NCBI GenBank assembly: GCA_017467805.1
Contig: JAFUKJ010000056.1
Span: 1 to 64,000 of the forward strand
DNA: 64,000 nt
Direction: 5' to 3'
Origin: Lachnospiraceae bacterium
GTDB taxonomy: Bacteria > Bacillota > Clostridia > Lachnospirales > Lachnospiraceae
Every line of letters starts with the position of its first letter. Within the stretch, counting starts at the first letter, position 1. A program made the position numbers and the translations under genes. The notes beneath the pieces are model-generated. The model was not told the origin of the DNA, made no database searches, and saw only the letters and a program-made list of their open reading frames with translations. This document shows, piece by piece, positions 46,003-51,246 of the stretch.

Positions 46003-47832
46003 CTACTCCACTGTAACAGACTTTGCAAGATTTCTAGGCTGGTCCACATCCAATCCTCTGTAGGAAGATGTGTAATATGCCAGCAACTGTAAAATAATCG
46101 CAGCCGTAAACGGCGCAAATATATCATCACTTGCAGGAACTACCAAATGTTCATCACAGATACCATTCTCAATTGCGGCAGTATTTCCTTCCTTCGTAAT
46201 CAGAATTACCATAGCGCCCCTCGCACGTACTTCCTTCACATTAGAAATCATCTTTGCAAATACATCCGCCTGAGTAGCAAGCGCGATTACAGGTACTCCG
46301 CCTGTGATTAAAGATAATGTACCATGCTTTAACTCTCCTGCCGCATAGGCTTCTGAATGAATATAGGTAATCTCCTTCAGCTTAATGGAACCCTCACAGG
46401 ACAATGCATAGTCCAGACTTCTTCCAATAAAGAACAAGTCCTGTGCAGGTGTCAGACGTTTACTGAGTTCTTTCATCTTATCCTTTTGCTCTAACACCTT
46501 CTCCATCAATTCTCCAACGCCATCCAGTCCCTTCATATATTCGGACACCTCTTGGGCACTTAATTTACCAGCCACGTAGGCGAAGCGAAATGCCAATAAA
46601 TAAAATGCAGTCAACTGCGCAGTATATGCCTTTGTACTAGCTACTGCTATTTCGGGTCCCGCATGGGTATACAAAACATAATCCGATTCTCTGGCAATGG
46701 ACGAGCCTTTTACATTGACAATCGAAAGCGTCTTTGCTCCTTTCTCCTTTGCAAGACGCAATGCAGCCAGCGTATCTGCTGTCTCTCCAGACTGAGAAAC
46801 CAATATTACCAATGATTTCTCATCCAAAATCGGGTCCTCATAGCGAAACTCTGAAGCAACCTCTACACTTACGGGAATACGCAGCAGTCTTTCCATTAGA
46901 ATCCTTCCCATCATTCCAGCGTGCATTGCTGTACCACATGCCGTGATAACAACACGATTTGTATCCCAAAATAACTCATCCGAAATTCCATCCTCAGAAA
47001 AATCAGGCAGAAGCTGCTCGCCCTTCTTCATTCGTGGAGCAAGTGTTCTACGAATTGCTTCTGGCTGTTCATGAATTTCTTTCAACATATAATGCTTAAA
47101 ACCATTTTTCTGAGCTGCTGACATATCCCAATGAATACTTAACATGACAGGACTCACCACAGTACCATCCAGCTCCATTACTGTAATGGTATTTTTCGTA
47201 ACCTTGGCTACCTGATACTCAGGAAGCACAAAATATTCCTTGGAATAACGAAGCAATGCAACCATATCTGAAGCCACTACAGAGCCTTCCTCAGAAGAGC
47301 AGCATACCAACGGGCTTCCCTTACGAATGCAATAAATAACATCCTTTTGGTCTGCAAACATAATACAGAAAGCATACGCACCTTCCAGTCTGTCCACCGC
47401 TCCACGCAATGCCGCTAAAGCATCTCCATGATATAAAGAATCCAACAGCATAGCCGCAATCTCTGTATCCGTCTGAGATGACGGCACTCTACCTGTTTCC
47501 TCCAGTTCCTTTGCTAACTCATGATAATTCTCAATAATTCCATTATGAATCAAGGTCACATTACCACACTGGTGAGGATGTGCATTTACCTCCGACACAC
47601 CGCCATGTGTTGCCCATCTGGTATGACCGATACCACAGCCAGACTCCATTCTTGACGGTAACTTATTCTCAAGTCCTGCTACCTTGCCTACAGACTTCAC
47701 TACTTCGATGCCACGCTCTGTAAAACAGGCAATTCCTGCACTATCATAGCCGCGATATTCCAGCTCTGCCAGTCCCTTAATCAACTCCTGCTTTGCATCC
47801 AAATAACCACAAAAACCTATAATTCCACACAT
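46003..47832 (-). CDS. glmS: Glucosamine-6-phosphate synthase
   Basis: This 609-aa enzyme makes glucosamine 6-phosphate from fructose 6-phosphate and glutamine. The N-terminal nucleophile Cys2 (MCGIIGFCG), the glutaminase loops (RWATHGG, HNGIIENY) and two SIS domains (SQSGETADT; GRSLDYA) are complete, as is the C-terminal AKSVTVE. The 83-nt gap upstream has no room or motif for a glmS ribozyme. It is the last gene of a unit that includes nagB, the opposing catabolic enzyme, with a hairpin between them. Confidence 0.96.
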   Translation of the reverse strand: MCGIIGFCGYLDAKQELIKGLAELEYRGYDSAGIACFTERGIEVVKSVGKVAGLENKLPSRMESGCGIGHTRWATHGGVSEVNAHPHQCGNVTLIHNGIIENYHELAKELEETGRVPSSQTDTEIAAMLLDSLYHGDALAALRGAVDRLEGAYAFCIMFADQKDVIYCIRKGSPLVCCSSEEGSVVASDMVALLRYSKEYFVLPEYQVAKVTKNTITVMELDGTVVSPVMLSIHWDMSAAQKNGFKHYMLKEIHEQPEAIRRTLAPRMKKGEQLLPDFSEDGISDELFWDTNRVVITACGTAMHAGMMGRILMERLLRIPVSVEVASEFRYEDPILDEKSLVILVSQSGETADTLAALRLAKEKGAKTLSIVNVKGSSIARESDYVLYTHAGPEIAVASTKAYTAQLTAFYLLAFRFAYVAGKLSAQEVSEYMKGLDGVGELMEKVLEQKDKMKELSKRLTPAQDLFFIGRSLDYALSCEGSIKLKEITYIHSEAYAAGELKHGTLSLITGGVPVIALATQADVFAKMISNVKEVRARGAMVILITKEGNTAAIENGICDEHLVVPASDDIFAPFTAAIILQLLAYYTSSYRGLDVDQPRNLAKSVTVE

Positions 47833-47915: not shown

Positions 47916-48626
47916 TTAGTTCTCACTATAAATTACTGTTAAATCAGGGTGAAGCTGTAAGATAGAAGCTGGAACCTCTGGAGTAATAGGACCAAAGAAT
48001 GCCTTCTCCACGATATCCTTCTTATTCTTACCATTCGCAATTAAAAGTACCTTCTTAGCACTCATAATACCGCCCATACCCATTGTAACTGCCTTTCTTG
48101 GCACATCTGCTTCAGATGCAAAGAAACGTGCATTTGCTTCGATTGTTGAAGGGTCAAGCTCTACTACATGAGTAGCCTTCTCAAAATAAGTATCAGGCTC
48201 GTTGAAACCGATATGTCCATCAAGACCAATACCAAGTAACTGAAGGTCAATACCACCTGACTGCTGAATCAATGCATCATATGCTTCACATTCCTTCTGA
48301 AGGTCTGCTGCACAGCCGTTAGGAACGTTAGTCTTAGTAATATCAATATTAATCTTTGTAAAAAGGTTCGTGTTCATAAAGTAACGATAGCTCTGGTCAT
48401 TGCTTCCATCCAAGCCAACATACTCATCCAAGTTAATAGATGAAACCTTAGAAAAATCAACCTCGCCCTTTGCACACTTCTCTACAATCTTCTCATATGT
48501 TCCAAGTGGTGAAGAACCTGTTGCCAAGCCCAATACACTATTAGGCTTTAATACTACCTGTGCACAAATCATTGCAGCTGCCTTGCAGCTAAGCTCATCG
48601 TAATTGTTTACCTTAATAAAATTCAT
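47916..48626 (-). CDS. nagB: Glucosamine-6-phosphate deaminase
   Basis: This 236-aa enzyme converts glucosamine 6-phosphate to fructose 6-phosphate and ammonia. It shows the family motifs LGLATGSSPLGTYE, NLDEYVGL (catalytic Asp), GIGLDGHIGFNEP and AVTMGMGGIMSAKKVLLIANG. AAGGAGG precedes the ATG. It sits upstream of glmS, which runs the opposite reaction; separate control through the hairpins on either side would prevent a futile cycle. No nagA is present in the window. Confidence 0.95.
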   Translation of the reverse strand: MNFIKVNNYDELSCKAAAMICAQVVLKPNSVLGLATGSSPLGTYEKIVEKCAKGEVDFSKVSSINLDEYVGLDGSNDQSYRYFMNTNLFTKINIDITKTNVPNGCAADLQKECEAYDALIQQSGGIDLQLLGIGLDGHIGFNEPDTYFEKATHVVELDPSTIEANARFFASEADVPRKAVTMGMGGIMSAKKVLLIANGKNKKDIVEKAFFGPITPEVPASILQLHPDLTVIYSEN

Positions 48627-48647: not shown

Positions 48648-48680
48648 GAAGAAAAATGCCTGCCCGCTTATGCAGGCAGA
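48648..48680 (-). terminator. Hairpin between the GlmU-like gene and nagB
   Basis: GCCTGC (48658-48663) pairs with GCAGGC (48672-48677) around an 8-nt loop, followed on the minus strand by ATTTTTC. It is a likely terminator or attenuator ahead of nagB. Confidence 0.65.
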
Positions 48681-48730: not shown

Positions 48731-49393
48731 TTATACTCTCTCTACTACTGTCTTGGCATCCTTCACAATGCAGTTTGCAGGATATACACCGCGAAGTGCA
48801 GTTAACGGATATACAGAAGTATTCTTACCAATCACTGTACCTGGATTAATAACAGAGCCACATCCAACATCTGCACCATCTGCTAAAATACCGCCAATCT
48901 TTCTAAGTCCTGTCTCATAATCCTCATCACCGTGAATTACTACTGGCTTACCATCAGACTTTAAATTAGAGCAGATAGTACCAGCACCCGTATGCGCCTT
49001 GTTACCTAATACAGAATCACCAACATAGTTATAATGAGGAATCTGTACCTTATCCAGTAATACGCAATTCTTCAACTCAGAGGAATTACCAATCACGCAG
49101 CCCTCTCCTGTAATTACACTACCACGAATAAATGCACCAGGACGCACCTCTGTATTAGAACCAATAATGGCAGGTGCCTCAATCGTAGCAGTAGGATAAA
49201 TCTTTACATTCTCACCTACCAATACACCGTCTGCAATCAAAGTATAGCCAGGTATTCCCTTTTCAATCAAATCTAAAATATAGCCCTTAATCTTTGGAAG
49301 CATTTCCCATGGATACTCACTCTCTTCAAACAATGCCACAAGATACTCAGGCTGTGACGCATAAAGCTCCTTTGTCTTTACTAACTTATTCAA
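48731..49393 (-). CDS. GlmU-like left-handed beta-helix acyltransferase
   Basis: This 220-aa protein lacks the GlmU nucleotidyltransferase domain. It has a short helical N-terminus and a left-handed beta-helix with hexapeptide repeats (VLVGENVKIYPTATIEAPAII, IRGSVITGEGCVIGNSSE, SVLGNKAHTGAGTICSN). Such proteins are acetyltransferases or sugar-nucleotide enzymes; N-acetylation of a glucosamine phosphate is likely from context. The TTG at 49393 with AAGGAGG 8 nt upstream is the probable start and overlaps the glmM stop by 8 nt; a GTG seven codons earlier lies before that site. No separate pyrophosphorylase gene is adjacent. Confidence 0.82.
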   Translation of the reverse strand: MNKLVKTKELYASQPEYLVALFEESEYPWEMLPKIKGYILDLIEKGIPGYTLIADGVLVGENVKIYPTATIEAPAIIGSNTEVRPGAFIRGSVITGEGCVIGNSSELKNCVLLDKVQIPHYNYVGDSVLGNKAHTGAGTICSNLKSDGKPVVIHGDEDYETGLRKIGGILADGADVGCGSVINPGTVIGKNTSVYPLTALRGVYPANCIVKDAKTVVERV

Positions 49394-51008
49394 CGCAATG
49401 TCCTCCTTCCACAATCGCTTTCACTATCATTTCTACATATTCCATACACTTTTCCTGTGTTTCACTTTCTACCATAACGCGAATCACTGGCTCTGTACCA
49501 CTCTGTCTAAGAAGTGCTCTACCCTTCTTATTAATGAGCTTCTCTACCTCATCCTTTGCCTTCAATACATTCGCATCTGCCAATACTGCTGCCTTATCCT
49601 TAACTCTTACATTCTGTAAATACTGAGGATAAAGCTTAATCGGCTCGGCAAGCTTTGCCAAAGAGGTCTTAGAATCGCAAATCTCCTCTGCAAGCATAAT
49701 CGCTGTTAAAATACCGTCTCCAGTAGTTGCATACTTTCTCATAATAATATGGCCTGACTGCTCACCACCGATAGCATAGTTATTATTCTGCATGCACTCA
49801 TAAACAAAACGGTCACCAACCTTCGTCTGAACGCATTTGATACCTATCTCCTCAAGACTTGCAACAAAGCCACTGTTGGACATAATCGTAGTTACTACTG
49901 TGTTATCCTCCAATGTACCTCTCATCTTCAATCTCTTACCGAGAATGTAAATCATAGCATCACCGTCTACCTCATTACCATTCTCATCTACAGCGATACA
50001 ACGGTCTGCATCACCATCAAAAGCAAAGCCAAGGTCTAGATGCTTCTCTTTTACAAGCTTCTTCAATGGTTCAATATGAGTAGAACCGCAGCCCTCATTG
50101 CAGTTCAGTCCATCAGGCTCATCACCAATCACATAAATCTGAGCACCAAGCGCACTGAATACCGCTCCCGCAATATTCCATGAAGCACCATTTGCACAAT
50201 CAAGACCAATTCTCAAATTCTTATAGGAATTAGAAGCCAAAGAAATCAAATATCCGATATAGCGGTTTCTTCCTGCTGAGTAATCATGGATGCAGCCAAT
50301 CTTAGACTTCTGAGCTAACGGTAAATCATCTCCCGTAACACCAAGTGTCTTCAAATCGCCATCAATATATGCCTCAATCAGGGCAGTTGTCTCGTCATCC
50401 AGCTTCTCACCGTATGCATTGATTACCTTAATACCGTTATCGTAATAAGGATTGTGAGATGCTGTAATCATGATACCACAGTCAAACTCATCCTTACGGG
50501 TTACATAGGAAACACCTGGGGTAGTAATAACATGAAGCATATAAGCATCTGCACCACTGGCTGTAATACCTGCAACGATAGAGTACTCTAACATATAGCT
50601 GGAACGTCTAGTATCCTTACCTATGACAATACGCGGACGGTAGCCTGGCTTTGTACAGCCTGAAAGCTTAGAAGAATAATACCAGCCAAGGAATCTTCCT
50701 ACACGATACGCCTGCATAGAGGTCAGAGTAACATTTGCCTCTCCACGGAAGCCATCTGTGCCAAAGTACTTATTCACTCTCGGTTCATTCGCCGATGTAC
50801 GGTTAATCTCTATCTTATCCAGTAAAAGTTCATCTGTTGATACACTAAAAATCTCTGCAAGCTGTAACACCTTATCAATCTGCGGAAGTGCCTGATCCAT
50901 CTCCCACTTAGAAATGGACTGTCTGGAAACACCAAGTGTCTCTGCCAGCTGCTCCTGAGAAATGTCAGCGGCATTTCTTAACTGTATGATTTTCTGTCCG
51001 ATTGTCAT
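49386..51008 (-). CDS. glmM: Xre HTH-phosphoglucosamine mutase fusion
   Basis: This 540-aa protein joins an Xre-type DNA-binding domain (residues about 4-64; SQEQLAETLGVSRQSISKWE) to a complete phosphoglucosamine mutase (about 79-540). The mutase has the phosphoserine loop ITASHNP (S184), the metal loop DGDADR (331-336), GGEQSGH and the RQSGTEP phosphate loop. It converts glucosamine 6-phosphate to glucosamine 1-phosphate for cell-wall synthesis. Normal GlmM is about 450 aa and has no HTH. One open frame runs through the junction (TSANEPRVNKYFGTDG), with no strong internal ribosome site. It is the first gene of the amino-sugar unit, so enzyme and operon repressor may be one protein. Promoter and dyads lie directly upstream. 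Confidence 0.93.
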   Translation of the reverse strand: MTIGQKIIQLRNAADISQEQLAETLGVSRQSISKWEMDQALPQIDKVLQLAEIFSVSTDELLLDKIEINRTSANEPRVNKYFGTDGFRGEANVTLTSMQAYRVGRFLGWYYSSKLSGCTKPGYRPRIVIGKDTRRSSYMLEYSIVAGITASGADAYMLHVITTPGVSYVTRKDEFDCGIMITASHNPYYDNGIKVINAYGEKLDDETTALIEAYIDGDLKTLGVTGDDLPLAQKSKIGCIHDYSAGRNRYIGYLISLASNSYKNLRIGLDCANGASWNIAGAVFSALGAQIYVIGDEPDGLNCNEGCGSTHIEPLKKLVKEKHLDLGFAFDGDADRCIAVDENGNEVDGDAMIYILGKRLKMRGTLEDNTVVTTIMSNSGFVASLEEIGIKCVQTKVGDRFVYECMQNNNYAIGGEQSGHIIMRKYATTGDGILTAIMLAEEICDSKTSLAKLAEPIKLYPQYLQNVRVKDKAAVLADANVLKAKDEVEKLINKKGRALLRQSGTEPVIRVMVESETQEKCMEYVEMIVKAIVEGGHCVE

Positions 51009-51028
51009 ATGCGCTCTCCTTCATTTAC

Positions 51029-51119
51029 AATATACTACTGTATTATGTAATTAATTATAACAACACACATATACCCTTTCAAGCAACTTTACTCCTCTTT
51101 TTTCGCAACTGCAAGTTGC
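51029..51119 (-). promoter_or_regulatory. Promoter and dyads of the glmM-HTH operon
   Basis: On the minus strand TTGAAA (51082-51077) and TATAAT (51059-51054) are 17 nt apart, about 45 nt before the ATG. Just downstream, AATATACTACTGTATTAT (51029-51046) has an ATAC/GTAT dyad near the start of transcription. Upstream, GCAACT-TGC-AGTTGC (51119-51105) is a perfect dyad. Either could bind the HTH of the mutase; this is inference. Confidence 0.7.
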
Positions 51120-51199
51120 ATTTTTCGTTTTTTTAGTCATTTTGCGCTGTTGAAAACTTGATTTTTTAAAAAAATAGGCTTTTTTTGTAAAGTTCAATT

Positions 51200-51246
51200 T
51201 ACAAAAAGCTCGTATTTTATGTTTCATAAAATACGAGCTTTTTATC
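51200..51246 (-). terminator. Strong terminator after the cytidylate-kinase-like gene
   Basis: AAAAAGCTCGTATTTTATG (51203-51221) pairs with its reverse complement (51225-51243), a 19-bp perfect stem with a 3-nt loop and T-runs. A second stem, TTTTTGTAAA with TTTACAAAAA, partly overlaps it. Confidence 0.9.

Follow-up and report, generated by a model that had tools for sequence, protein, structure and literature searches.

The window, which is the whole stretch of 64,000 nucleotides (64 kb) analysed here, carries on its minus strand a single reading frame in which an Xre-type helix-turn-helix (HTH) domain is joined to a complete phosphoglucosamine mutase (GlmM). We refer to the product as HTH-GlmM. 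The gene is followed by a series of genes read in the same direction:

49386..51008, minus strand: HTH-GlmM fusion gene, 540 aa (single ORF from ATG; Pfam and NCBIfam matches)
50823..50999, minus strand: Xre HTH domain, residues 4-62 (HTH_3 on residues 7-61, HTH_19 on 4-62)
49413..50771, minus strand: GlmM part, residues 80-532 (TIGR01455 on 82-532; PGM_PMM I-IV)
48731..49393, minus strand: GlmU-C-like hexapeptide acyltransferase (overlaps the glmM stop; TTG start taken from alignment with relatives)
48659..48680, minus strand: terminator-like hairpin in the acyltransferase/nagB gap (not conserved)
47916..48626, minus strand: nagB (TIGR00502, 263.0 bits, cut-off 236.9)
46003..47832, minus strand: glmS (Pfam SIS and GATase domains)

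The initial annotation had read one frame with an Xre HTH and a whole GlmM, and the profile searches bear this out. The HTH_3 match reaches 55.0 bits (cut-off 23; E 8.6e-15), the TIGR01455 glmM model gives 504.1 bits (cut-off 447.55) and is covered from position 1 to 440 of 442, and the four Pfam PGM_PMM domains occupy residues 80-530. GlmM enzymes are marked by an active-site serine, a DGDADR metal loop, a GE-x-[ST]-GH sugar loop and an R-x-SGTE phosphate loop. S184, DGDADR (331-336) and RQSGTEP (501-507) lie exactly where they had been placed, and S184, D331, D333, D335, R336, E416, G419, H420, R501 and S503-E506 are invariant in 22 aligned fused proteins. The same holds for the recognition residues S28, R29, Q30, S33, K34, W35 and E36 of the HTH. 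About 15 linker residues lie between this domain and GlmM domain 1. Both parts look to be under purifying selection, as judged from dN/dS values of 0-0.08 for the HTH and 0.017-0.054 for GlmM in nine pairs, several of which have dS above 1 and are unreliable.

Residues 79-532 align with nearly the whole chain of solved bacterial GlmM structures and share their motifs (best: 7ojr, 9g69, 3pdk and 6gyz), while HTH residues 1-62 align with the ICEBs1 Xre protein 7t8i. None of the 33 distinct PDB sequences among the matches listed covers both the HTH and GlmM; the matches begin at residue 77 or later, with the exception of one small Xre protein. An artefact of sequencing at the junction is ruled out by the identical type of fusion in many separate assemblies. 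Nor is there a conserved internal start that would split the HTH from GlmM: in-frame start codons occur in the linker at 23 of 34 loci, and a full Shine-Dalgarno sequence precedes one at a single locus, L120.

The expected gene order of glmM, a GlmU-like gene, nagB and glmS is correct, but as a series it is interrupted before nagB by the hairpin at 48680-48659. The acyltransferase gene lies directly 3' of the fused glmM in 20 of 23 loci (exceptions: L040, L046 and L054), and nagB comes next in 12 of the 23, several loci ending too early to judge. In L039, L043, L044, L045 and L049, nagB starts about 15 nt or less past the acyltransferase stop. A search for terminators in this gap gave a weak one in L009 and none in L010, L011, L038, L039, L043, L044, L045 and L049. 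The window's hairpin carries a T run and may thus partly uncouple nagB and glmS in this genome, although the two genes could still share the glmM transcript. Two further features of the downstream region were noted. A 14-bp hairpin with one wobble pair and no T run, GAGGTTGGCTTGAG-AGGG-CTCAAGTCAACCTC, can be drawn at 47890-47859 (minus strand), just 5' of the glmS ribosome-binding site. In L053, a frame of 359 aa, 2386-3465 nt past the start of the fused glmM, lies between the acyltransferase gene and nagB and resembles a small-molecule kinase, perhaps an N-acetylhexosamine kinase.

Distribution of the fusion and its HTH-less relatives

A search of GlmM homologs for N-terminal HTH fusions, as the initial annotation had proposed, returned many. 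Besides the window's gene there are at least 34 distinct full-length fused genes, 65-97% identical, and two incomplete ones, namely L047, cut at residue 9 by a contig end, and G171, split over two contigs. They span eight family codes of Clostridia (f1, f8, f29, f33, f34, f42, f43 and f74) plus named records. The loci from the genome collection are the best 80 of 576 matches, of which 15 align from the first residue onward and L047 from residue 9. Within the window's genus, 4 of 37 genomes (in a set of 61) carry the fusion: the window's own and three with 97, 96 and 96% identity. An order sample of 392 genomes added three full fusions (G120, G187 and G210) as well as G171 in two pieces. In a class sample of 391 genomes, the 17 matches at 1e-200 comprise the window, 14 fused genes and two genes without an HTH; one class locus, L166, is identical to L052 and was counted once among the distinct genes. 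A phylum sample of 398 genomes yielded no fusion besides the window's at 1e-200, a threshold that more distant fusions would escape.

The fused gene is the sole match over the GlmM cut-off in all 14 fused genomes of the class sample, several of them incomplete, and likewise in G120, G187 and G210; the two pieces in G171 fall below the cut-off. The completeness of the genomes with a sole fused GlmM ranges from 65 to 98%. In the window's genus, the fused genomes G011, G014 and G024 also have an ordinary GlmM that passes the cut-off, and in G000 only the beginning of one is seen before the contig ends. This beginning stands behind a frame that we read as YbbR/CdaR-like.

The nearest relatives lacking the HTH are L051, L172 and L173, whose GlmM is 71-76% identical. 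L172 begins with MTLGKK, which resembles the start of the fused form, and then continues straight into GlmM, as it would after an in-frame loss of the HTH. In the best tree (67 rows), the three branch from three separate positions within the fused clade, and the clade that includes them has 100/100 support. Identical L166 and the repeat loci L149-L157 were left out of this tree and 28 randomly chosen unfused rows were kept; it was rooted at the midpoint without ordinary GlmM, the intended outgroup (L013, L016, L029 and L030) having been dropped when the start motif was not found. An approximately unbiased (AU) test does not reject all fused genes as one clade (p 0.162), nor does excluding L172, L051 or L173 singly from that clade give rejection (p 0.269, 0.494 and 0.593, respectively). 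Joint loss of HTH and operator is therefore the account given by the best tree, not a proven history, and some of the three relatives may predate the fusion. A candidate 'split' form, in which an Xre gene follows an unfused glmM in the related genomes of L059, L061, L065 and L076, was set aside, as these are separate genes with a hydrophobic tail.

Promoter, predicted operators and their specificity

The region upstream of the fused gene contains the following elements:

51187..51202, minus strand: upstream dyad O3, GTAAATTGAACTTTAC (83 nt from O1; 10/10 letters)
51105..51119, minus strand: predicted operator O1, GCAACTTGCAGTTGC (kept at fused genes; sole exact copy in the window)
51083..51097, minus strand: predicted operator O2 (GTTGC at 51087-51083 is the right half; the left half is degenerate in the window)
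51077..51082, minus strand: -35 element TTGAAA (promoter scoring; abuts O2)
51054..51059, minus strand: -10 element TATAAT with preceding TG (promoter scoring)
51014..51021, minus strand: ribosome-binding site AAGGAGAG (read directly from the sequence)

The sigma-A promoter recognised earlier is indeed a clear one, TTGAAA-17-TATAAT with an extended TG (51082-51054), scoring 11/12. Two dyads had also been described upstream of the gene. The one at 51105-51119 (O1) is kept in relatives; the other, ATAC-agta-GTAT (about 51043-51032), was not seen by eye in their upstream regions. Two other conserved elements were found, the half-site at 51087-51083, which belongs to O2, and the dyad at 51202-51187 (O3).

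The O1 motif, GCAAC-N5-GTTGC, was recognised by reading 22 upstream regions, and it has one exact copy in the window (0.04 expected). An exact copy lies within 400 nt upstream at 20 of the first 23 fused loci; the exceptions are L047, which has only 3 nt of upstream sequence, and L046 and L042, in which the left half is changed. No copy, even with one mismatch allowed, was found within 400 nt upstream of 90 unfused relatives (L051, 75% identical, among them) or of 27 ordinary glmM genes, and the site is missing from all three of the nearest HTH-less relatives, L051, L172 and L173. Among fused class loci fetched after the motif had been recognised, 13 of 14 (12 of 13 without the duplicate L166) have an exact O1, and L161 has one with a single mismatch. 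The initial annotation had suggested asking whether the dyads occur only upstream of fused forms. For O1 this holds: it heads the fused operon in all 36 loci with readable upstream sequence, three having a changed left half, versus none of 117 unfused glmM genes and two later HTH-less relatives. We also considered O1 as a transcription terminator, since it is terminator-like on the plus strand, and rejected this reading because the site lies upstream of the -10 element and the T run is not common to the relatives.

For letter counts we used 35 loci: the first set contributed 21, L047 and L050 being excluded, another 13 came from the later loci, and the last, L157, had been retrieved with the motif pattern itself. 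The right half of O1, GTTGC, is present in 35/35 and the left half, GCAAC, in 32/35. O2 is a weaker element 22 bp downstream of O1, about two helical turns away; its GTTG is found in 34/35 loci, 16-19 nt past O1, and in most of the 35 a TTG that begins the -35 element follows. In many species TCAA-like letters ten bases ahead of the GTTG complete a dyad, a half that is missing in the window's lineage. The best -10 element stands 17 bp past the O2-abutting -35 in 25/35 loci.

Three loci deserve separate mention here. In L050, an exact O1 lies at the head of the operon, 90 nt ahead of the ATG of a glmS remnant, and the right half of O2 is degenerate; the remnant, a frame of about 80 codons located 275-30 nt before the fused glmM, starts and finishes like GlmS and lacks the middle, through either a real deletion or an assembly effect. 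L011 has about 150 nt extra between O2 and the fused gene compared with its close relative L010 (O2 at -234 versus -80), perhaps a small inserted element. As a lead only, since the comparison was chosen post hoc, L046, L162 and L167 carry the substitution S31A in their recognition helix, and 2 of these 3 have a deviating operator letter versus 2 of 32 others (p 0.029).

The O3 pattern, G[TC]AA[AC]-N6-[TG]TT[AG]C, is matched at 9 or 10 of its 10 letters in 22 of 35 loci, as compared with 3.7 from block shuffles, and falls below 9/10 letters in the other 13. Two classes of distance from O1 stand out, 71-76 and 82-85 nt, which correspond to about seven and eight helical turns. In the first 21 loci, 14 matches fall in these ten positions versus 3 in the remaining 170, and in the 14 other loci 8 fall in the favoured positions versus 3 elsewhere; the letters had been chosen from the first set, where the pattern was seen by eye, and the distance classes were set only after all 35 loci had been viewed. 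L050, which is outside both counts, has O3 74 nt further upstream of its O1.

We scanned 24 genomes, 22 with the fusion, for the combined site. At the fused gene it is present in 8/8 and then in 12/14 fused genomes, with G637 and G718 having one-letter variants at that place. G171, G575 and G574, the last of which lacks the HTH, each contain one additional match, in every case inside a long reading frame, and the reversed control pattern gave one match across the 24 genomes. The combined site is thus practically unique in each genome searched. A wider regulon was considered and set aside: no second intergenic combined site occurs in the 22 fused genomes, for an exact pattern that would miss sites with a changed half.

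HTH-GlmM as a predicted regulator of its own operon

Taken together, the comparison lends strong support to the proposal of the initial annotation that HTH-GlmM would act on its own operon, as O1 accompanies fused genes only and the combined site is practically unique. Repression and the sensing of amino-sugar flux via phosphorylation or occupancy of the enzyme, which were part of the same proposal, are more conjectural. Our preferred reading, to which we assign a probability of about 0.72, is that of a self-regulating enzyme that binds O1 and O2 at its own operon and most likely lowers transcription. According to an excerpt of PMC8573169, GlmM is a dimer joined via domain 1; with a linker of about 15 residues, two HTH domains can plausibly meet at one dyad. 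The dimer, besides making glucosamine-1-phosphate, would occupy O1 and O2 ahead of the operon, and the spacing of two turns suits cooperative binding, which is probable. In many species O3 may be joined by a DNA loop, a fair inference from its phased distances. Binding beside the -35 element most likely lowers transcription, so that the amount of enzyme would limit its own synthesis. We infer each of these steps (binding, cooperativity, looping and the negative sign) from the arrangement of the sites.

The sign of the effect is the step on which an alternative weighs most. Activators also use a position near -43 next to the -35 element, an example being lambda CI, which acts at PRM from OR1/OR2. 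By our arithmetic O2 is centred near -43 and abuts the -35, so that activation is a live rival: HTH-GlmM on O1 and O2 could aid RNA polymerase at its own promoter, much as lambda CI does. The position of O2 next to the -35, rather than over the -10 or the start, agrees with this, as do the separation of O1 and O2 by about two helical turns and three g129 promoters with a poor -10 (L118, TAGTAT; L119, TATAGT; L120, TAGGGT). Help is hardly needed, however, at the window's promoter, which is near consensus (11/12, extended -10), and the -10 stands at the ideal 17 bp in 25/35 loci. Given the near-consensus promoter of the window, we judge repression likelier, by about two to one over activation, and regard positive autoregulation as unlikely. 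Far less probable is that O1 and O2 serve another transcription factor, the HTH of GlmM having a different function or none. There are many other Xre genes in these genomes, and HTH-GlmM is linked to O1 by sequence comparison; but such a factor would hardly explain why the site is missing before 117 unfused glmM genes and two later HTH-less relatives, why it is practically unique per genome, or why the HTH and its recognition residues are conserved.

A separate question is whether the predicted control would respond to anything other than the amount of protein. The promoter could simply be bound in proportion to dose, with no effect of substrate or phospho-state, which is our preferred reading of a self-regulating enzyme minus the sensing. 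This is the simplest reading of the anatomy, and the sequence reveals no coupling between active site and HTH; we give it a little under even odds. Against it, the related PutA and BirA respond to substrate or ligand, and domain 4 of GlmM is described as flexible in the excerpt of PMC8573169, which makes coupling possible. That DNA binding depends on substrate or on whether S184 is phosphorylated may be held with the same reserve, at slightly less than an even chance. In its fullest and more tentative form, which we rate somewhat below even, the sole GlmM of many gut Clostridia would be its own and only dedicated transcription factor. The catalytic state of the enzyme (free, phospho-S184 or sugar-bound) would be relayed to helically phased tandem operators at its promoter, and the protein would be a counterpart of the glmS ribozyme in the control of amino sugars.

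The glmS ribozyme exerts feedback control on the amino-sugar pathway that it shares with GlmM; it is an RNA, whereas HTH-GlmM is a protein. The ribozyme family RF00234 was not found in the window, and it occurs in 0/8 fused versus 6/16 unfused genomes. As a hint that the fusion replaced the ribozyme, these counts are suggestive only; 10 of the 16 unfused genomes also lack it. We dropped the idea.

To our knowledge, enzymes that control a promoter and have a DNA-binding domain of their own are few. The nearest known kind are the trigger enzymes: an excerpt of PMC8249747 lists five, GlmM not being one of them, and includes BirA, PutA and NadR of E. coli, which have a DNA-binding domain. HTH-GlmM resembles these in its anatomy, a metabolic enzyme and a DNA-binding domain in one polypeptide. 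Its predicted site is at the gene's own promoter, as for PutA, which according to the same excerpt binds only the putA-putP spacer. It differs from all three as a phosphohexomutase on the way to UDP-GlcNAc, with another pairing of domains. Lambda CI and the Xre regulators of mobile elements likewise have tandem operators at their own promoters, spaced by about two helical turns as the predicted ones are here, but the remainder of HTH-GlmM is a housekeeping enzyme. No account of a GlmM with a DNA-binding domain was found in the titles and abstract openings of the open-licence PMC papers among the matches listed. The conserved promoter architecture at fused glmM genes (O1, O2 and often O3) is a new result.

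In many gut Clostridia no GlmM other than HTH-GlmM was found, and the enzyme would thus itself determine the dose of a step required for peptidoglycan. With one protein, one promoter and two or three short sites, the system is small; it has natural HTH-less relatives without the operator, and it could be rebuilt in B. subtilis or E. coli to ask whether transcription reads the catalytic state. In L120, a GTG six codons 5' of FGTD in the linker is preceded by a full AGGAGG and could yield a second, HTH-less GlmM in that species alone.
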